Assembly (NCBI GenBank): GCA_012959965.1 | Contig: DUCF01000066.1 | Span: 5,886-69,885 of the forward strand | DNA: 64,000 nt | Direction of reading: 5' to 3' | Source of the DNA: Candidatus Thioglobus sp. | Lineage (GTDB): Bacteria > Pseudomonadota > Gammaproteobacteria > PS1 > Pseudothioglobaceae | Shown: positions 19,440 through 30,051 of the stretch, one piece after another | Numbering within the stretch: the stretch's first letter is position 1 | Layout of the letters: each line of letters starts with the position of its first letter | Translations under genes and position numbers: made by a program | The notes under the pieces: generated by a model | Databases searched by the model: none | What the model was told of the DNA's origin: nothing | What the model saw: only the letters and a program-made list of their open reading frames with translations

Positions 19440-20501
19440 TTAAACAAGCAAATCCCTAATAGATTGCTCAAGTGCTCCTGTAAAGCCAGAATCGTTTCCC
19501 GGGTTGGCGGCACAATGTCCCCAGGGCGAGTCATAAGCTCTAAGCTCTGCATTCGGTATGAGTTCAGCTTCAATTTGATTGTCTGCCGGCGGAAAGTACA
19601 AATCCTGAGCGCAAGGCATGAGAATTGTCTTTGCCTTAATGGAGCTGAGCGCTTGATGATAATTACCGTTATACAGAGGCCCAACACTTATATCACCGGC
19701 TTGCCAAGTGCTTAACTTTGCCAACAAATTATTGGCATCCCAGTTCTCAGCGTGATCCTTCTCCCAATCAAGAAGCAACGCTTCAGCTGACTCGTAACCA
19801 ATCTCTTTGAACAACTCGTCTCGATAAAATGTTTGCGAAAAAGCCCAGCCGGCATATACTCTGGCAAACGCTTTTAAACCGGCAATTGGCGGCGTTGTGT
19901 AATTACCACCATCCCAATGCCCATCAGCACACAGTGCGGCTTTAACCCCTTCAAGAAACACGTGGTTATGAATTGAGGTCTTGGCAGATGCGCAAAACGG
20001 AAGTATGGTGTCAACAAAATCTGGATACTGCGCAGCCCATTGATAGGCCTGACAGCCAGCCATTGACCAGCCAGTGACAAGCGCTATGCGTTCAACATAC
20101 AGATGCTCAGTTAATAATCGATACTGGCAAGCAATATTATCCCAAAGGCTTATTTGTGGGAAGCGTGGCCCATCTTGTGGTACAGGTGTATTAGACGGTG
20201 AAGATGAGAGACCATTACCAAATAAGTTAATAGAGACAATGAAATGTTTCTTTGGATCAATCGCCCTGCCAGCGCCAAAAAAAACCTCGTTTCTTTGATG
20301 AGAGCCGGTGTAAAAAGTCGGCAAAACTACAACATTGTCTTTGTTTTTATTTAACTTACCGTATGTTTTATAAACCAAGAATGCCGCTTTCAGACACTCA
20401 CCCGACAAAAGAGAGACTGATCCTAATTCGTATTTTTTGCTATTAATCATCAAGAGTGTTTTACTTATAGGGTTGTTGTTTTTATACAGACAATCCATCA
20501 A
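19440..20501 (-). CDS. Alpha/beta-fold hydrolase of the homoserine O-acetyltransferase (MetX) superfamily; substrate unknown
   Basis: LFGNGLSSSPSNTP, nucleophile elbow VTGWSMAGCQAYQWA, C-terminal SPWGHCAANPGN; 12 bp downstream of the glnT-like gene. Confidence 0.82.
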   Translation of the reverse strand: MMDCLYKNNNPISKTLLMINSKKYELGSVSLLSGECLKAAFLVYKTYGKLNKNKDNVVVLPTFYTGSHQRNEVFFGAGRAIDPKKHFIVSINLFGNGLSSSPSNTPVPQDGPRFPQISLWDNIACQYRLLTEHLYVERIALVTGWSMAGCQAYQWAAQYPDFVDTILPFCASAKTSIHNHVFLEGVKAALCADGHWDGGNYTTPPIAGLKAFARVYAGWAFSQTFYRDELFKEIGYESAEALLLDWEKDHAENWDANNLLAKLSTWQAGDISVGPLYNGNYHQALSSIKAKTILMPCAQDLYFPPADNQIEAELIPNAELRAYDSPWGHCAANPGNDSGFTGALEQSIRDLLV

Positions 20502-20513
20502 AGTTTGCCATTA

Positions 20514-21827
20514 TTAACAGTCTAACGTATGATCGCGCTCCCACTGGCTTAGATGAGAGGAGTGATCGTCCCACTGACTTTTTTTCATTTTCACGTAAGA
20601 GTCAATTAAGTTGTCTCCCAATCGCTCTCGCAACACATCACTGCCGTCAAGCAAGCGTAGCGCATCAAGTAGGTTACGTGGCAACTGCTTGTAACCTTCT
20701 AAATCTTTGCCAAGCTCGTACATGTTAATATTTAGTGGATCACCCGGATCGCGATTAGCTGCAACCCCGTCAAGACCACAGGCAAGGATAGCTGCTTGCA
20801 TTAAATACGCATTAGCAGCACCATCCATTAAGCGCAATTCAAAACGCCCCGAGTCTGGCACTCGAATCATATGGGTGCGATTGTTGCCACCATAAGTTAT
20901 CGAGCTCGGTGACCAAGTTGCACCTGAATCCGTTCTTGGCGCATTGATGCGCTTATAACTGTTGATAGTTGGGTTGAAGATTGCAGTGAGACGGTCAGCG
21001 CTGTGCATAATGCCGCCAAGAAATTGATAAGCTAAAGGCGATAACCCCAAACCACGAGCATCGTCCTCACCATTAAATAGGTTTTTACTGCCATCCAGAC
21101 TCCAAATGGATAGATGAGAGTGACAGCCGTTTCCTGTTAGATGACTGAATGGTTTAGGCATAAACGTTGCTCTCATACCATGAAGCTCAGCGATAGATTT
21201 AACCATGTACTTGAAAAACACATGACGATCTGCAGTTTTCAGTACATCATCATAATCCCAGTTCATTTCAAACTGGCCGTTGGCATCTTCGTGATCGTTC
21301 TGATACGGATTCCATTCTAATTCGATCATTGCATCACAAATCTGTTTTATCACTGGATACTGGCGCATTAAAGCCTGTTGATCGTAGCAAGGTTTGCTAT
21401 GCTGATCTTTGTCATCAGCGATATTGGTGCCATCACTGTTGATCAAGTGATACTCACACTCCACACCGGTTTTCATGCGAAAGCCCAATTTTTCAGCTTC
21501 AACCAACTGCCTTTTAAGGGCAACTCTTGGCGAGGCCTCAACCGGCTTGCCGTCCATCCATAAATCTGATGCCAACCAGGCAACTTCCTTCTTCCAAGGC
21601 AATTGAATCAAACTGTCAGGATCAGGAATAGCAAACATATCTGGATGCGCAGGAGTCATATCTAACCAAGCAGCAAACCCGGCAAAACCCGCACCATTTT
21701 TTTGCATGCCGTCGATGGCTCTAGTAGGCACCAATTTAGAGCGCAAATTTCCGAATAGGTCAACAAAGCTGATAAGAAAATATTCAATGCCACGTTCAGC
21801 AGCTATCTCACTTAGTTTAATTGTCAT
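20514..21827 (-). CDS. glnT: GlnT-type (type III-like) glutamine synthetase family ligase; candidate gamma-glutamylmethylamide synthetase
   Basis: VECEYHLI, NDHEDANGQFEMNWDYDDVLKTADR, GNGCHSHLSIW, NPTINSYKRINAP, FELRLMDGAANAYLMQAA. Confidence 0.88.
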   Translation of the reverse strand: MTIKLSEIAAERGIEYFLISFVDLFGNLRSKLVPTRAIDGMQKNGAGFAGFAAWLDMTPAHPDMFAIPDPDSLIQLPWKKEVAWLASDLWMDGKPVEASPRVALKRQLVEAEKLGFRMKTGVECEYHLINSDGTNIADDKDQHSKPCYDQQALMRQYPVIKQICDAMIELEWNPYQNDHEDANGQFEMNWDYDDVLKTADRHVFFKYMVKSIAELHGMRATFMPKPFSHLTGNGCHSHLSIWSLDGSKNLFNGEDDARGLGLSPLAYQFLGGIMHSADRLTAIFNPTINSYKRINAPRTDSGATWSPSSITYGGNNRTHMIRVPDSGRFELRLMDGAANAYLMQAAILACGLDGVAANRDPGDPLNINMYELGKDLEGYKQLPRNLLDALRLLDGSDVLRERLGDNLIDSYVKMKKSQWDDHSSHLSQWERDHTLDC

Positions 21828-21872: not shown

Positions 21873-23195
21873 TTAAAAACTACTTTTACCTGGAATCCAG
21901 TTGGTTCCTGCCAATGGCACGCCAGCCATTGCTGCCGCTTCCATTGTCAGTGCCACCATATCCTCTGGCTCCAAGTTATGTACATGACTCTTGCCACAGG
22001 CTCGCGCAAGTGTTTGCAGTTCCAGAGTAAGAACATTAAGATAGTTAGCCAATCGGCGTCCGCCCAGTTCTGGATCCAGCCTTTTGGCAAGCTCAGGGTC
22101 TTGAGTAGTAATACCGGCCGGATCATTGCCCGCTTGATAATCATCCCAAAATCCAGCGGCAGAGCCGAGGGCTTTGTATTCTTCATCGAACTCAGGGCTT
22201 TGGTCACCAAGCGCAATGAGCGCGGCTGATCCAATAGCCACAGCATCAGCACCTAAGGCTAAGCACTTGGCCACATCAGCGCCACTGCGAATACCGCCAG
22301 AGACAATCAATTGTACTTTGCGGTGCATATCCATCTCCACTAAAGCCTCAACAGCCAAGCGTACTGCTGGCATAGTTGGAATACCTACATGCTCAATAAA
22401 AACATCTTGGGTTGCTGCGGTACCGCCTTGCATGCCATCCACAACGACCACGTCAGCGCCCGATTTGACCGCCAAGGTGACATCGTAAAACACACGCGTG
22501 GCACCGACTTTGACATAAATAGGCTTTTCCCAGTTAGTAATTTCTCGTAACTCCTGGATTTTAATTTCCAGATCATCTGGGCCCGTCCAATCGGGGTGAC
22601 GACACGCAGAGCGCTGATCAATTCCTTCAGGAAGGTTTCGCATTTGTGCAACTCTCGGGGAAATTTTTTGTCCGAGTAGCATGCCGCCTCCGCCTGGTTT
22701 GGCGCCTTGACCAAGGACGATTTCAATGGCATCGGCACGTCTCAAGTCATCGGGGTTCATGCCATAACGTGATGGCAAGTATTGATAGATAAGGATTTTC
22801 GAGTGCCCCCTTTCTTCCGGCGTCATACCACCATCACCTGTCGTTGTACTGGTGCCTGCAAGTGTTGCACCCCTACCTAAAGATTCTTTAGCTTGTGCCG
22901 AGAGAGCGCCAAAGCTCATGCCGGCAATTGTAATTGGGGTTTTTAAATGAATTGGATTTTTTGCAAAACGACCCCCCAACACCACTTCAGTGGTGCATTT
23001 TTCACGGTAACCTTCCAAGGGGTAGCGGGAAGTTGAGGCGCCTAAAAATACCAAATCATCAAAACTTGGGAGAGCTCTTTTGGCGCCAAAGCCGCGAATA
23101 TCATAAATACCCGTTCTGGCAGCGCGCTGAATTTCCGCAACCACATGACGTGGAAATGTAGCTGATTCAATTAATGCTGGATTATCTTTACTCAT
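21873..23195 (-). CDS. FMN-binding glutamate synthase-family protein (GlxD/MgsC-like)
   Basis: ITIAGMSFGALSAQAKESLGRGA, GQGAKPGGGGMLLGQKIS, GGIRSGADVAKCLALGADAVAIG. Confidence 0.92.
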   Translation of the reverse strand: MSKDNPALIESATFPRHVVAEIQRAARTGIYDIRGFGAKRALPSFDDLVFLGASTSRYPLEGYREKCTTEVVLGGRFAKNPIHLKTPITIAGMSFGALSAQAKESLGRGATLAGTSTTTGDGGMTPEERGHSKILIYQYLPSRYGMNPDDLRRADAIEIVLGQGAKPGGGGMLLGQKISPRVAQMRNLPEGIDQRSACRHPDWTGPDDLEIKIQELREITNWEKPIYVKVGATRVFYDVTLAVKSGADVVVVDGMQGGTAATQDVFIEHVGIPTMPAVRLAVEALVEMDMHRKVQLIVSGGIRSGADVAKCLALGADAVAIGSAALIALGDQSPEFDEEYKALGSAAGFWDDYQAGNDPAGITTQDPELAKRLDPELGGRRLANYLNVLTLELQTLARACGKSHVHNLEPEDMVALTMEAAAMAGVPLAGTNWIPGKSSF

Positions 23196-23207: not shown

Positions 23208-23882
23208 TTAGTAGGCGTCAACTTGATCAATATCAAAATTGTATAATTTTCGGGCAGAGCCGTAGCGGCGAAACTCGTCAACATTGTGACCCATCTCGGA
23301 TTGCTTTAATAACTCCTCTAACTGCTCTTTGTGTTCAGCACGCATTTCTTTTTCAATACAATCTGTGCCCAGACTGGCCACCTGGCCACGGACGTATAAA
23401 CGCGCTTCGTAAATAGAGTCGCCCAGAGCGTCACCAGCGTCACCACAAACCACTAAACAGCCAGACTGTGCCATGAAGGCACTCATATGACCGATGTTGC
23501 CGCCGACAACAATATCAACACCTTTCATTGATATGCCGCAGCGTGAGCTAGCATCGCCCTCAATCACAAGTAGCCCGCCGTGTGCTGTTGCGCCAGCGTA
23601 TTGTGAGGCGTTGCCGGTCACGTGGACTTTGCCTGACATCATGTTCTCTGCTAAACCAGGACCTGCATTGCCGTTAATGGCAATGCTTGCCTGTTGATTC
23701 ATACCAGCGCAGTAATAGCCTACATGGCCGTTAATACCAACATTGATGGCCGTGGTTAAGCCCACTGAGACAGCGTGCTTTCCACCAGTATTACTGATGC
23801 TGAACTTGCCTCCAGAAGCGGCTCCTTGCAACGCCTCATTAAGGCTTCTAACAGTGCTTGTATTTAAATTAATTTCTGTCAT
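23208..23882 (-). CDS. GltB C-terminal (GXGXG) domain protein (GlxC/MgsB-like)
   Basis: MTEINLNTSTVRSLNEAL...GHVGYYCAGMNQQASIAINGNAGPGLAENMMSGKVHVTGNAS; repeated beta-helix glycine pattern. Confidence 0.88.
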   Translation of the reverse strand: MTEINLNTSTVRSLNEALQGAASGGKFSISNTGGKHAVSVGLTTAINVGINGHVGYYCAGMNQQASIAINGNAGPGLAENMMSGKVHVTGNASQYAGATAHGGLLVIEGDASSRCGISMKGVDIVVGGNIGHMSAFMAQSGCLVVCGDAGDALGDSIYEARLYVRGQVASLGTDCIEKEMRAEHKEQLEELLKQSEMGHNVDEFRRYGSARKLYNFDIDQVDAY

Positions 23883-23884
23883 GA

Positions 23885-24778
23885 TTAGCTCCTTTTCCAG
23901 CTGTAAATTTGAGTCGGCTCTGGTTCCCAAATACGCGCATTTTCAGCGCCAGGCAAAGTTGCAATGGCACGATACTCAGAGGCCATTGCCGCCCAGTCAT
24001 CTGTTTCTGCCATGATTGCAGGCTTACAACCAACAGGATCTCGCATTACCGCAAAGCCATCCTTAGTACCAATTGCAAAGGTATAAAAACCGTCTAGATC
24101 ATCAATTGCGTGGTTAAGAGCTTGCTCCAAGTCGTCGCCCTCGCTTAAGCGCCAGCTAAGGTAGCCCGCAGCAACTTCGGTATCGTTGTCGGTTGTGAAT
24201 TTAACGCCTCGGCGACGTAAAGTTTCACGCAGACGATTGTGGTTTGATAAGGAGCCGTTATGCACTAAGCACAAATCTTGACCGGTTGAAAATGGGTGGG
24301 AATGTTCGGTTGTAATAGCACTTTCCGTTGCCATGCGAGTATGGCCTAAGGCATGCGTTCCACTCATGCTTTTAATATCAAACTTCTCAATAAAGTCAAG
24401 TGGATCGCCTACACCCTTAAAGACTTCAATATTGGTGCCTGAACTGGTAATACTAAGTTCACTGTAGTTATTATCAAGCCAGTCCTGAACTTCGTCAGCG
24501 CTTGAATTCACAAACAGTACGGCTTGATTGTGCACCACCGCTATTTTTTTAAGGCTAAAAACGGTTTTAATTGCCACTTCAAGAGCATTCCAGTCAAAAT
24601 TTGAATGCTGAGCCAGCACAGAAATTTTGCAACCATTTGTATGAGGGTCTCGGTAAATCGCTATCCCCGCGCTATCCGGTCCACGCTCTGTCATCTCACT
24701 CAACATAGGTGCTATCAGAGCGCCTAATTGAGATTCCAGTGCTGGGTTTTTTATAAACAATCCAACAATTCCACACAT
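23885..24778 (-). CDS. Class II glutamine amidotransferase domain protein (GlxB/MgsA-like)
   Basis: MCGIVGLF with Cys2 nucleophile; MTERGPDSAGIAIY; ALGHTRMATES; HPFSTGQDLCLVHNGSLSNHNRLR. Confidence 0.93.
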   Translation of the reverse strand: MCGIVGLFIKNPALESQLGALIAPMLSEMTERGPDSAGIAIYRDPHTNGCKISVLAQHSNFDWNALEVAIKTVFSLKKIAVVHNQAVLFVNSSADEVQDWLDNNYSELSITSSGTNIEVFKGVGDPLDFIEKFDIKSMSGTHALGHTRMATESAITTEHSHPFSTGQDLCLVHNGSLSNHNRLRETLRRRGVKFTTDNDTEVAAGYLSWRLSEGDDLEQALNHAIDDLDGFYTFAIGTKDGFAVMRDPVGCKPAIMAETDDWAAMASEYRAIATLPGAENARIWEPEPTQIYSWKRS

Positions 24779-24898
24779 ATATAACTCCAAAAAAATAGCC
24801 AGCCTGAATTCATAATCAACTTAATTTTGGCTGCAGTTAAAATTAAATCACGAATAACATTATTTTATTAATCACAAGTCTTTCACTTTATTTTCTAC

Positions 24899-25043: not shown

Positions 25044-25060
25044 GTTGTGAAATATCAACA
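25043..25060. promoter_or_regulatory. Candidate LysR-family operator
   Basis: TGTTG-tgaaatat-CAACA inverted repeat abutting the -10 element of the lysR promoter. Confidence 0.45.
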
Positions 25061-25073
25061 ATTCTATGATTCA

Positions 25074-25949
25074 ATGCACCTAAACCAACTGCTAATTTTT
25101 TCAAAAATCGCCCAACATAAAAGCTTTACCAAGGCCGCTACCGAGTTACAAGTCGATAAATCAACAGTCAGCAATAATCTCGCGAAACTTGAATCCCGTC
25201 TGGGGGTTAGATTATTAAATAGAAGTACTCGCAGCGTGACTCTTACTGAAGCTGGACAGGGCTATTATCAGTACTGTCAACAGATTGTAGAGACCGCCGA
25301 AGAGGCCGAGCAATTTACCGCTAATCTCGGCAAGGAAGCGGTTGGATTATTACGCGTAGCAGCTTTAAACGATTTTTCACAAATATTCATTCCCAAAGTT
25401 ATCCAGCCATTTATGGAAGCCAATCCGAAAGTTGAAATGGAACTTATACTTGAATATCGAAACACCGATTTAGTTAAGGAACGTGTCGACATTGCTTTGC
25501 GTTTTGGCATTGTACCTCTTGAAGATTCCAATCTCATTTCAAAAAAAATTCTTGATGATGAGTTAGGCCTTTATTGCTCACCTGGGTTTATCGATAAATA
25601 TGGAAAACTTGTGGATGTCAGTCAAATAAACGATTTTGATTTGATTGAGCTTTTTATGGGTCCGCACATCCAACTCCCCATTAAGAAAGGCAATGTCAGC
25701 TATACAATTGATATGAAAGGTAGATTCAAGGTAAATGACTTACTAAGTGCCAAAGATGCTGCGTTATCTGGCTTAGGGATTGCAGCCCTATCCAAACTCC
25801 TTAGTCAGGAGGCGGTTGAGAAAAAACAACTAGTGCCACTACTGACTGACTGGCAATTTCCAAGTGTTGCTGTATACGCAATCTACCCCAGTCGCCAGTG
25901 GATGCCGGCAAAATTAAAAGTTTTTTTATCGTATCTCGAGCAACTATAA
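25074..25949 (+). CDS. LysR-family transcriptional regulator
   Basis: MHLNQLLIFSKIAQHKSFTKAATELQVDKSTVSNNLAKLESRLGVRLLNRSTRSVTLTEAG; Met at 25074 preferred over GTG 25047. Confidence 0.95.
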   Translation: MHLNQLLIFSKIAQHKSFTKAATELQVDKSTVSNNLAKLESRLGVRLLNRSTRSVTLTEAGQGYYQYCQQIVETAEEAEQFTANLGKEAVGLLRVAALNDFSQIFIPKVIQPFMEANPKVEMELILEYRNTDLVKERVDIALRFGIVPLEDSNLISKKILDDELGLYCSPGFIDKYGKLVDVSQINDFDLIELFMGPHIQLPIKKGNVSYTIDMKGRFKVNDLLSAKDAALSGLGIAALSKLLSQEAVEKKQLVPLLTDWQFPSVAVYAIYPSRQWMPAKLKVFLSYLEQL

Positions 25950-25998: not shown

Positions 25999-27447
25999 TT
26001 AGTACAGCCTTAGATACTCCTCAACTTCCCATTCTGTCACCGCCTGGTGATAGCGATCCCATTCGTCCATCTTGTAGGCGAAGAATTGTTTCATCATCGA
26101 CTCACCCAAAACTTCGCGGGCAAAATCACTCTTTTGTAATGCCTCCAATGCCTCAAGTAAGTTGCGTGGCAACGAAGTAATATTAGCTTCTTTGATTTCT
26201 TCTTTACTCAAGGAATACAAATCCAAATTGAGAGGATCACCAGGGTCGATCTTATTCTTAATACCATCAATCGTTGCCGCTGTTGTTAAAGCAAGTGACA
26301 AGTACGGGTTCATGCACATATCCGCCGCACGATTCTCAATACAAAAACGATTTTGAGGCAAGCGAACCATACAAGAGCGGTTGTTATCACCATAAGCCAT
26401 TTGGGTTGGCGCCCAGGTAACTGTCCCCCCCTCGAATCCACCCACTTTAGGCACCAAGCCATTATAAGAATTCACCGTTGAACAGGCAATGGCAGTAATT
26501 GCATGGCCGTGTTTTAATATGCCACCAATTGCATGGTAGGTCTCTTCTGAAAACTTGCCGTCTTCGCCCTCAAAAATATTACCGCCACCGTCAGTGTCAG
26601 TCAAACTGAAATTAATATGCGCACCAGAGCGCCAATCGCCAATTGTAGGCTTCGGCATAAAGGTAATAAACATACCATGGTTTTTTGCTATCTCTTTTAA
26701 CAAGACTCGCAAGAAAACAAGGCGATCGGCCATTTCAAGAACATTGGTATAAGTAAAGTCTAATTCAAATTGCGAATAAGCACCCTCAGCAACTACGTCT
26801 TTAACACCCCAACCGAGACCGTTCAAGATATCAATCATTTCGCCAAGAAAGCCCATCGATTCAATGCTGTATTCAGCATCATAACCAAAGGCTTGACGGC
26901 GTGGACGAAGACCTTTACCAACAGCAGGGTCATCATCAATAGCCTTAACCGGCTGACCATTCTCCCAACGCATTGCAATAAATTCAGGCTCAATGCCACA
27001 GAAGGCTTTAAAGCCAGCATCTTCGGCATCCTTAACTGCACGTTTAAGTGTTTGACGTGGACAAAGGTTGTAAGGTTTACCCTCCCACCATAAGTCTGCA
27101 AAAACCCAGGCGCAAGTTTCATCCCAAGGGCAAATAACCAGGGTATCCAAATCTGGAACAGGAATTTGATCAGAGTCAGCTGGCCCTAATTCTGGCACAA
27201 ATGAAATAGAGTGGACTGCGAATTGCGGACCTTTGCCCATACATAAGGCTTCAAATTCACACATTGGCACCGGTTTGGTTTTTGGAATGCCAAGTAAATC
27301 AATCCAACAGGATAGAATGTATTTAACACCTGCCTTTTCCAGTTTTTCTTTAGCCTTAATAACGCGCGCTTTCGATGGCAGCGCATCAACCATTGATGTT
27401 GGATATGTATTTGTCATATATTCTCCTAATAACTCGTGTTGATACAA
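25999..27447 (-). CDS. Second glutamine synthetase-family ligase, divergent (gamma-glutamyl-amine ligase-like)
   Basis: 482 aa; GIEPEFIAM, YSQFELDFTYTNVLEMADR, RSGAHINFSL, NRFCIENRAADMCMNPYLSLA; canonical NSYKR replaced by NSYNG. Confidence 0.88.
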   Translation of the reverse strand: MYQHELLGEYMTNTYPTSMVDALPSKARVIKAKEKLEKAGVKYILSCWIDLLGIPKTKPVPMCEFEALCMGKGPQFAVHSISFVPELGPADSDQIPVPDLDTLVICPWDETCAWVFADLWWEGKPYNLCPRQTLKRAVKDAEDAGFKAFCGIEPEFIAMRWENGQPVKAIDDDPAVGKGLRPRRQAFGYDAEYSIESMGFLGEMIDILNGLGWGVKDVVAEGAYSQFELDFTYTNVLEMADRLVFLRVLLKEIAKNHGMFITFMPKPTIGDWRSGAHINFSLTDTDGGGNIFEGEDGKFSEETYHAIGGILKHGHAITAIACSTVNSYNGLVPKVGGFEGGTVTWAPTQMAYGDNNRSCMVRLPQNRFCIENRAADMCMNPYLSLALTTAATIDGIKNKIDPGDPLNLDLYSLSKEEIKEANITSLPRNLLEALEALQKSDFAREVLGESMMKQFFAYKMDEWDRYHQAVTEWEVEEYLRLY

Positions 27448-27449
27448 AC

Positions 27450-28001
27450 TTAAAGGTTTTCGTGTGACTTTAACAAAAACTGATTTTTAAAGGTTGTTAA
27501 TCCTTTCATTACTTCTACATTGTTGATATCGTCTTTATTAAAACAATGTTCGTCGAGAAAACGGCATAAGGTGTCATCGCTATTCGAAACAATTTCCACC
27601 AAAAGGTCGTAACGCCCAGTAACCCAGATAATAAAAACAATTTCAGGACAATCCTGCAACCTCTTAGCAACCGCCCCAGGGCTTGAAGTAGGCGCAACCT
27701 TAATACCCAACATCGAATCTGTTGCATAATTAATTGCAGAAGGATCAACCAAGGCTTTTATTTGCAAAACTCCAGCATCTTTCATTCGATTCACACGATT
27801 TCTCACCGTGCCTTCGGAAACATCCAGCGCTGTGGCTATCTCTTTAAAGGGTAAGCGTCCATCCATCTCAAGCATGCCAATAATTTGTTGATTTAATTTA
27901 TCACCCAAAGTATCTCTTGATGGGATACGTAGCAATTGATCGCCACCATTCACGTCGGCTGTTTGATTCAAAGACATAACAGGTTTGCTAGAATTATTCA
28001 T
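27450..28001 (-). CDS. Lrp/AsnC-family transcriptional regulator
   Basis: LNQQIIGMLEMDGRLPFKEIATALDVSEGTVRNRVNRMKDAGVLQIKALVDP; RAM-like C-terminus (VFIIWVTGRYDLLVEI). Confidence 0.95.
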   Translation of the reverse strand: MNNSSKPVMSLNQTADVNGGDQLLRIPSRDTLGDKLNQQIIGMLEMDGRLPFKEIATALDVSEGTVRNRVNRMKDAGVLQIKALVDPSAINYATDSMLGIKVAPTSSPGAVAKRLQDCPEIVFIIWVTGRYDLLVEIVSNSDDTLCRFLDEHCFNKDDINNVEVMKGLTTFKNQFLLKSHENL

Positions 28002-28016
28002 TAATAGTCCTTAGTT

Positions 28017-28412
28017 CTATGGCATATCTTCTGGATCAATGCCCGGAACAAAAGTGATGCCAGCTTGTTGCTTCCAATCGTGGGGATAAGCCGCATAAAA
28101 AATCACGCATTTTTCATCACACTCATAAGCAATGTGATTGTCGCGAGGAATATAGAGAACATCACCTGGTGAGCATGTATAGGACTTTCCATCACAAGTC
28201 AGTCTAAACTCACCTTCCATACAATAAATAATTTCATCACAAGTCAGGTCCCATGGGACCGACACTTGATTCAAGAAATTAAGCCCGCCACACATTGTGT
28301 CACTGACGTTGCTTGTGACAAATGGTTTGATATAGGACTTTCCTGGCTCTAAAGTATGCAGACGATTTTCAATATCGCTAAATTTATACAACTTGGGTGT
28401 TTTATCACTCAT
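28017..28412 (-). CDS. Cupin-domain protein
   Basis: WDLTCDEIIYCMEGEFRLTCDGKSYTCSPGDVLYIPRDNHIAYECDEKCVIFYAAYP. Confidence 0.9.
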   Translation of the reverse strand: MSDKTPKLYKFSDIENRLHTLEPGKSYIKPFVTSNVSDTMCGGLNFLNQVSVPWDLTCDEIIYCMEGEFRLTCDGKSYTCSPGDVLYIPRDNHIAYECDEKCVIFYAAYPHDWKQQAGITFVPGIDPEDMP

Positions 28413-28427
28413 CTTTTTCTCCTAGAT

Positions 28428-28850
28428 TTAGTTTGGATTAATGGTTTCGTTTAATTCAACAACATAGCCGTCAGGATCTTTCAAGAAAGCTAAAATTCTT
28501 GTCCCATGACTCATTGGACCAGGTGGTGCTATGATTTCAGCACCTTGCGCAGTGAGGTCTTCAAAAGCTTTATGTACATCTGGGGTTTCAATGCAAAGAT
28601 GGCCCCAGCCATTGCCCTTGTCGTAGTGCCCTTCTTGGTCCCAGTTATGAGTTAACTCCAAGGTTGGGAATTCTGCTTCGGGGCCATAACCAATAAAAGT
28701 ATTGGTGTAACGGCCACCTGGATAGTCGGTCTTTCTTAACACCTGCATTCCTAAAATATCGCAGTAAAAATGGATAGACTTATCTAGATCCAACACCCTG
28801 ATCATTGTGTGGGCCAGTCTATAATTCGGTTTTTTATTCTCTTCAAACAT
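28428..28850 (-). CDS. gloA: Glyoxalase/VOC family protein, lactoylglutathione lyase-like
   Basis: YRLAHTMIRVLDLDKSIHFYCDILGMQVLRKTDYPGGRYTNTFIGYG; LELTHNWD; GWGHLCIETPDV; FLKDPDGYVVELNE. Confidence 0.9.
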   Translation of the reverse strand: MFEENKKPNYRLAHTMIRVLDLDKSIHFYCDILGMQVLRKTDYPGGRYTNTFIGYGPEAEFPTLELTHNWDQEGHYDKGNGWGHLCIETPDVHKAFEDLTAQGAEIIAPPGPMSHGTRILAFLKDPDGYVVELNETINPN

Positions 28851-28870
28851 TAATTAACTCCTAGTTTTGT

Positions 28871-29971
28871 TTATTTATTCTGTGTCACAGCAGTTGAAAT
28901 CATTGTTTGGAAGGCGCGAACACTATCCTCCCAATGAGGTGATAATAGACCACCATCTTCCGCAACAGGTGACGCTCTACCGAGCTGCATGCGCGCGCAG
29001 ATTGCATGGTCTTCTTTGTGCACATCCCACCATAGTTGTTTTATCTCTTCTATCTCAGGCGCCGATAAAGATTGACCTTCTGTAGTGTAAATTACTCTTT
29101 TCTGAGTTGTACGCCCAGAGTCTACGGGTACGCTCAAATACACGCCAAGTTGATCGGGGAAATAACGCCCAATAATAAAATTCGGAAATAGGGTTAGATA
29201 GCGCGAACTCACCGAAAGACAGCCCTCTACTTGATCACTATCATCCAAATCGACCGCACTACCAAGACACACACCATCAACGATTGTGTAGTGATCTTCA
29301 AGCGGTTGATTGGTTGTTGTGCGGTGTACAAATTGAACGTGATAAGGCTCAATAAAATTTTCAATAAGAAATTTCCAATTGCACGAAATTTCACCGAAGT
29401 CCAATGTCGCCACAGGACTAACTTGATCAAAATTTATACCATCTAAATGTCGAATCAAGGGCTCCGCATAAACTTCAAATTCTGGCGCATCACCGCTTAA
29501 ATTGATAAAAATCCAATCGTGCCAAACTACCAACCTTATTGGTATAAGGCCATGTTCCGACATTTCAAAACCTTCTGGGTGATGTTCTTTACCACCAAAA
29601 AATGGGGTTGCGCAAAGCTCGCCATCCAAATTATAGGTCCAAGCATGGTAAGGGCAGCACAACATGGCACCGACATTCATCGGCTCATCAACCAGCTTAA
29701 GGCATCGATGAGAGCAGGCATTATGAAATGCACCTATATCACCTCGCGTATTTTTGATTAGCAGTACGGGTTTTCCAGCCACTATCACTGGCTGTGCATC
29801 GCCAGGCTCAGCAAGCTCATGAGCAAAGCCAACAAAAACCCAGTTATCAGAAAACAGTGTGTCGTATTCAGCTTGTAAAAATTGCTCATCATTGTACGCA
29901 GCAGCAGGCAAGCCATGCTTTAGCACGCCTTGCTCGAAGAACGCAGACAATTCAATTGTATTCTTACTCAT
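28871..29971 (-). CDS. Rieske non-heme iron oxygenase, alpha-subunit type (aromatic-ring-hydroxylating/GbcA-like)
   Basis: Rieske CSHRC...CCPYHAW; mononuclear Fe site ENFIEPYHVQFVH; internal Met at 29971 (MSKNTIELSAF). Confidence 0.93.
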   Translation of the reverse strand: MSKNTIELSAFFEQGVLKHGLPAAAYNDEQFLQAEYDTLFSDNWVFVGFAHELAEPGDAQPVIVAGKPVLLIKNTRGDIGAFHNACSHRCLKLVDEPMNVGAMLCCPYHAWTYNLDGELCATPFFGGKEHHPEGFEMSEHGLIPIRLVVWHDWIFINLSGDAPEFEVYAEPLIRHLDGINFDQVSPVATLDFGEISCNWKFLIENFIEPYHVQFVHRTTTNQPLEDHYTIVDGVCLGSAVDLDDSDQVEGCLSVSSRYLTLFPNFIIGRYFPDQLGVYLSVPVDSGRTTQKRVIYTTEGQSLSAPEIEEIKQLWWDVHKEDHAICARMQLGRASPVAEDGGLLSPHWEDSVRAFQTMISTAVTQNK

Positions 29972-30008
29972 TACACACTCCAAACATTAGGCAGCAAATT
30001 TTCTATAT

Positions 30009-30051
30009 TGGCAGATTGTTTCTGCCATATATTGCATTTAATGCAATATAT
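30009..30051. promoter_or_regulatory. Two adjacent inverted repeats upstream of the Rieske operon
   Basis: TGGCAGA-ttgtt-TCTGCCA (30009-30027) and ATATATTGCATT-t-AATGCAATATAT (30027-30051, perfect 12-bp arms); a further half site TTGCAATAT at 30062-30070. Confidence 0.6.

Follow-up and report, generated by a model that had tools for sequence, protein, structure and literature searches.

A conserved Rieske oxygenase gene cluster joined to gmaS-mgsABC in Candidatus Thioglobus, probably for catabolism of a quaternary N-methyl compound such as homarine

Related systems and the Thioglobus gene cluster

The Rieske oxygenases that act on quaternary amines form group V, which an excerpt of PMC7948474 sets apart by an aromatic contact to the quaternary ammonium. 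CntA carries a bridging Glu according to passages of PMC7948474 and PMC10952381, and a passage of the latter notes that some group V enzymes are unique in having a Cys pair next to the iron. Consumption of homarine (N-methylpicolinate) by Ruegeria pomeroyi is recorded in an excerpt of PMC12817926, and a homarine pathway using Mgd, published in 2026, is cited in a passage of PMC13390433, which also treats gmaS-mgsABC of R. pomeroyi as genes of the N-methylglutamate pathway. The gamma-glutamylmethylamide synthetase GmaS of Rhodovulum sp. 12E13 (RhGmaS; structure 7CQL) has been characterised structurally (PMC7948447). Here we describe a gene cluster of Candidatus Thioglobus sp. that lies within a stretch of 64,000 nucleotides (the window; GenBank assembly GCA_012959965.1, contig DUCF01000066.1, positions 5,886 to 69,885 of the forward strand), in which a group-V-like Rieske oxygenase gene and its conserved companions are joined to gmaS-mgsABC, and which probably belongs to a widespread pathway of marine bacteria that degrades a zwitterionic compound with a quaternary N-methyl group, homarine being the most likely one.

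A homarine operon, homABCDER, encoding five enzymes and one regulator, has reportedly been described by Ferrer-Gonzalez et al. (Nat Microbiol, 2026); it is said to occur in Rhodobacterales, SAR11 and SAR116 and to yield N-methylglutamate and glutamate. The cluster described here appears to resemble that operon, as reported, in having five conserved enzymes plus a regulator and in being found in Rhodobacterales and SAR11 hosts, a likeness that may serve as a lead rather than a test. It differs in being fused into one run with gmaS-mgsABC and in its location in a Thioglobus/SUP05-group genome. A link to N-methylglutamate metabolism is common to both, through Mgd in the homarine pathway as given in the excerpt of PMC13390433.

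The first five genes occupy 25999-29983 on the minus strand in the open reading frame (ORF) listing of the window, at the place given in a preliminary description of this DNA (25999-29971), and all five families are confirmed by Pfam and NCBIfam:

28871..29971, minus strand: Rieske oxygenase alpha subunit, group-V-like (PF00355 and PF00848; 366 amino acids from the ATG at 29971)
28428..28850, minus strand: VOC protein, glyoxalase-I-like (GloA-like; TIGR00068, 132.1 bits, cut-off 120)
28017..28412, minus strand: small EutQ-type cupin (PF06249; relatives 2pyt and 4axo)
27450..28001, minus strand: Lrp/AsnC-family regulator (PF13404/PF01037)
25999..27447, minus strand: GS2, a glutamine synthetase (GS)-like ATP-dependent enzyme in which the glutamate-binding Arg is replaced (PF00120; residue comparison)

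The ATG at 29971 is the better start for the Rieske gene, and GS2 probably begins at an ATG near 27417, because its relatives are 472-475 amino acids long. From GS2 to the Rieske gene the intergenic gaps are 2 bp (or about 32 bp with the likelier GS2 start), 15 bp, 15 bp and 20 bp. The His/Glu/His/Glu metal site of the VOC protein is intact in all 76 sequences of the homolog alignment.

The preliminary description drew the unit as these five genes, which are indeed conserved together; its boundary was set too short, and the unit continues beyond a convergent LysR gene with three synthase-type genes, gmaS and an alpha/beta-hydrolase gene:

25047..25949, plus strand: LysR regulator between the two halves, outside the run in finished relatives (Pfam)
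23885..24790, minus strand: glutamine-amidotransferase-like protein (GATase_6), MgsA-type (N-methylglutamate synthase; PF13522)
23208..23930, minus strand: GXGXG-domain protein, MgsB-type (PF01493)
21873..23195, minus strand: glutamate-synthase-type flavin mononucleotide (FMN) protein, MgsC-type (PF01645, 306 bits)
20514..21827, minus strand: gamma-glutamylmethylamide synthetase GmaS, a type III GS (TIGR03105, 654 bits)
19440..20501, minus strand: MetX-like alpha/beta-hydrolase, final gene of the conserved core (PF00561, PRK07581)

Conservation and organization of the cluster

Using the Rieske protein as query we identified 80 loci in species-representative genomes, at 57-90% identity, and co-conservation was counted in 49 loci whose match is preceded by at least 7 kb and followed by about 8 kb of sequence (full-flank loci). 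GS2 is present in all 49, so that the Rieske/GS2 pair, whose neighborhood the preliminary description had proposed to examine, is found together throughout, and VOC (48 loci), hydrolase (47) and cupin (45) are nearly as constant. The Lrp gene, described earlier as an embedded regulator, is indeed there and is present in 31 of these loci, and mgsABC in 15. These counts define a core of Rieske, VOC, cupin, GS2 and hydrolase genes plus Lrp, and conservation of the set far exceeds chance. Carriers include SUP05/Thioglobus, Pelagibacteraceae (SAR11), Ruegeria, Leisingera, Roseibium and Silicimonas (with Rhodobacterales among the hosts) and Hyphomicrobiales, and mgsABC adjoins the core in both Gammaproteobacteria and Alphaproteobacteria. 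Within the window's own family GS2 is carried by 23 of the genus's 29 genomes and by one of the 54 other genomes.

Two finished genomes from the genus have these genes on a single strand, in the order Rieske-VOC-cupin-Lrp-GS2-GATase-GXGXG-FMN-GmaS-hydrolase, with no LysR gene between them. Because the run is continuous there, the LysR gene of the window is seen to split a ten-gene run, and it is nearly absent from the corresponding position in the loci of relatives. A third genome of the genus keeps the core and gmaS, with mgsABC missing between. The mgsABC and gmaS genes are thus inserted between GS2 and the hydrolase gene of the core, in the order mgsABC-gmaS. The encoded GmaS is 63% identical to RhGmaS, and equivalents of RhGmaS Asp177, Glu186 and Arg288 are present in all 20 members of its clade, with the Arg312 equivalent also aligned; this identity and these residues, together with the three adjacent synthase-type genes, identify the segment as gmaS-mgsABC of the N-methylglutamate pathway. 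By domain content the three genes correspond to MgsABC, a predicted N-methylglutamate synthase. The R. pomeroyi gmaS-mgsABC genes (PMC13390433) are alike in GmaS residues and in having three synthase-type genes; the Thioglobus genes differ in their placement inside the core and in their order.

Between GS2 and the hydrolase gene, relatives carry a BCCT transporter gene (three loci) or an NMT1/THI5-like ABC system (four loci and one further locus). A second Rieske gene (about 455 amino acids) and a D-2-hydroxyacid dehydrogenase gene accompany the operon in about 30 loci, and in the genome studied here such a pair lies on a separate 4.4-kb contig. Another contig carries an Mgd/Sox-type BDAG dehydrogenase operon with a GbcB-like reductase gene; three of its four subunits score under the curated sarcosine-oxidase cut-offs, so that either an Mgd or a Sox assignment is possible. 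The GbcB-like reductase is a candidate for the partner reductase that the preliminary description had suggested seeking in the genome.

The copies in SAR11 (five loci) adjoin ProVW-type transporter genes and genes that, on visual inspection, resemble carnitine-dehydrogenase, BKACE, thioesterase, TauD-like and HD-domain genes. Judged by gene content, these surroundings are possibly a quaternary-amine island.

Residue signatures of the Rieske protein and GS2

The iron ligands of the Rieske protein are invariant among 81 homologs, as is the bridging carboxylate, Glu212. The position of CntA Tyr203 (residue 210) is Phe in 70 and Tyr in 11 of the 81, and the protein thus has both of the features that mark group V, a bridging Glu and an aromatic/Asn substrate residue. 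Structure comparison using an AlphaFold model (predicted local distance difference test, pLDDT, 78) gives CntA as the nearest solved fold, at about 21% identity in the fold alignment, with stachydrine demethylase among the next. With CntA, stachydrine demethylase and GbcA the protein shares the bridging Glu, the aromatic residue at the Tyr203 position, the fold and the lack of a beta subunit, and it differs in forming a clade of its own that is associated with a five-enzyme operon. These residues and the fold, taken with the BCCT or NMT1/THI5-like transporters of relatives, point to a zwitterionic substrate with a quaternary nitrogen, and lend support to the oxidative attack on an N-methylated compound proposed at the outset.

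GS2 shares about 34% identity with both RhGmaS and an aniline-type ligase. Residues equivalent to the Mg/phosphate-binding Glu122, Glu124, Glu179, Glu186, His235, Arg312, Arg317, Glu325 and Arg327 (RhGmaS numbering) are present in all 71 homologs. The equivalent of Arg288, which in the excerpt of PMC7948447 contacts the glutamate analogue and sits in an ATP-responsive loop, is Gly in 71 of 71, and Gly231, another contact to the analogue, is replaced by Arg. Arg is present at the 288 position in GmaS, in the Delftia aniline-type ligase and in E. coli PuuA. The loss of this Arg while the ATP/Mg residues remain intact disfavors GS2 as the gamma-glutamyl-capturing enzyme that the preliminary description had taken it to be, and the role seems better assigned to the separate GmaS at 20514-21827. 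The simplest reading of the residues is that GS2 is an ATP-using enzyme that lacks the usual glutamate binding and is probably not a gamma-glutamyl ligase. We relied on the residues alone, the AlphaFold model of GS2 (pLDDT 65) being too weak for arguments about the pocket. A change of Asp177 to Val was discarded as diagnostic, since PuuA also has Val.

A tentative suggestion is that GS2 phosphorylates and couples, or helps to open, a carboxylate of the pathway with no use of glutamate. If true, this would give the glutamine synthetase superfamily a new class of substrate, and N-methyl compound breakdown an ATP-dependent step; the replaced glutamate site is a well-defined biochemical question that is open to testing.

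A proposed pathway

From these features we infer homarine as the substrate, together with a set of enzyme reactions and their order. A plausible scenario is that the Rieske oxygenase, served by a reductase encoded elsewhere, oxidizes the substrate beside the quaternary nitrogen, and that the opened product is processed by the glyoxalase-I-like protein, the cupin, the alpha/beta-hydrolase and the ATP-dependent GS2. The N-methyl nitrogen would then pass into the N-methylglutamate pathway through GmaS and MgsABC and an Mgd/Sox-type dehydrogenase encoded elsewhere, giving glutamate, ammonium and one-carbon units, with the Lrp/AsnC protein as the likely regulator of the cluster.

As N-methylglutamate would retain the nitrogen, C2-C5 and the carboxylate of homarine, C6 would have to be lost. 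The Rieske enzyme might therefore attack at C6 or C5-C6, and ring opening would give a formyl or oxo-aldehyde intermediate; an oxo-aldehyde could be taken by the GloA-like protein, and the hydrolase and GS2 could complete the route. This particular order of steps is doubtful.

Most likely the cluster joins the pathway published in 2026, which would suit its group-V-like Rieske enzyme, the transporter genes of its relatives and its N-methylglutamate genes; one of its enzymes is unexplained. The preliminary description saw here the best candidate for an undescribed system, a view not supported given that publication (cited in the excerpt of PMC13390433), for which the cluster is a strong candidate. 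If this is the homarine pathway, one Thioglobus/SUP05-group genus joins the users of this abundant metabolite of phytoplankton, and the gene order physically couples the pathway to methylamine/N-methylglutamate recycling.

Alternative explanations

The near-universal core in the 49 full-flank loci and its continuity with mgsABC-gmaS in finished genomes favor a homarine-type catabolic unit. Two observations weigh against it: the CntA Cys pair is missing, with Pro213 and Val216 in all 81 homologs, and the proposed pathway leaves the second Rieske gene, which many relatives carry, without a role. The Cys pair is a feature of some group V members and hence not exclusive. It is somewhat unlikely that the same architecture serves another quaternary N-methyl substrate, such as an amino-acid betaine, a carnitine-like betaine or another N-methyl pyridinium, from which methylamine would pass to GmaS/MgsABC. 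Group V enzymes take several such substrates (excerpt of PMC7948474), the BCCT transporters of relatives are unspecific and the SAR11 copies sit amid betaine/carnitine-type genes; however, five specialized enzymes exceed what simple demethylation or C-N bond cleavage would require, and both the range of hosts and the number of genes agree with the reported homarine operon.

The preliminary description compared the cluster with aniline degradation, and in this case GS2 would ligate an amine to glutamate and the Rieske enzyme would act on, or feed, the gamma-glutamyl amide. A GS-fold protein encoded next to a Rieske alpha subunit is common to this locus and to the aniline-type clusters (tdn/atd/npa and Delftia plasmid pLME1), and both the intact ATP/Mg residues of GS2 and its similarity to the aniline-type ligase fit such a role. 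Yet the pLME1 cluster has genes for the GS-like protein, GATase1, alpha, beta and reductase, whereas family searches of the window proteins found no GATase1, beta subunit or reductase adjoining the genes described here; the preliminary description had likewise noted no beta subunit. The bridging residue, Glu here, is Asp in the pLME1 alpha subunit, the GS-like protein of pLME1 retains the glutamate-binding Arg that GS2 has lost, and a genuine GmaS is encoded next door to GS2. On this content and these residues we reject an aniline-type logic, and regard it as improbable. A glycine betaine monooxygenase operon with passenger genes is very improbable. GbcA is the best NCBIfam match of the Rieske protein, which was also its earlier label, and the genome has a GbcB-like reductase, but the NF058607 score of 131.7 bits falls far short of the cut-off, 670, and GbcA identity is rejected on this basis; another Rieske protein of the same genome scores higher (279.8 bits), the nearest solved fold is that of CntA, and the supposed passengers are kept almost invariably.

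Other observations

A group of Rieske proteins in Rhodobacterales at 33-36% identity was rejected as belonging to this system, its neighbors being CntA-like (VanB-type reductase, BCCT and sarcosine oxidase in one example). An Rfam search of the window gave no match. A perfect 25 bp palindrome, ATATATTGCATTAAATGCAATATAT, lies at 30027-30051 of the window, about 55 bp 5' of the Rieske ATG, and is a candidate Lrp operator; it was not seen in the upstream regions of relatives, and a shared operator was rejected. We also note that the 1.79-Mb genome encodes many Rieske oxygenase alpha subunits relative to its size, and that several of these have a bridging Glu.

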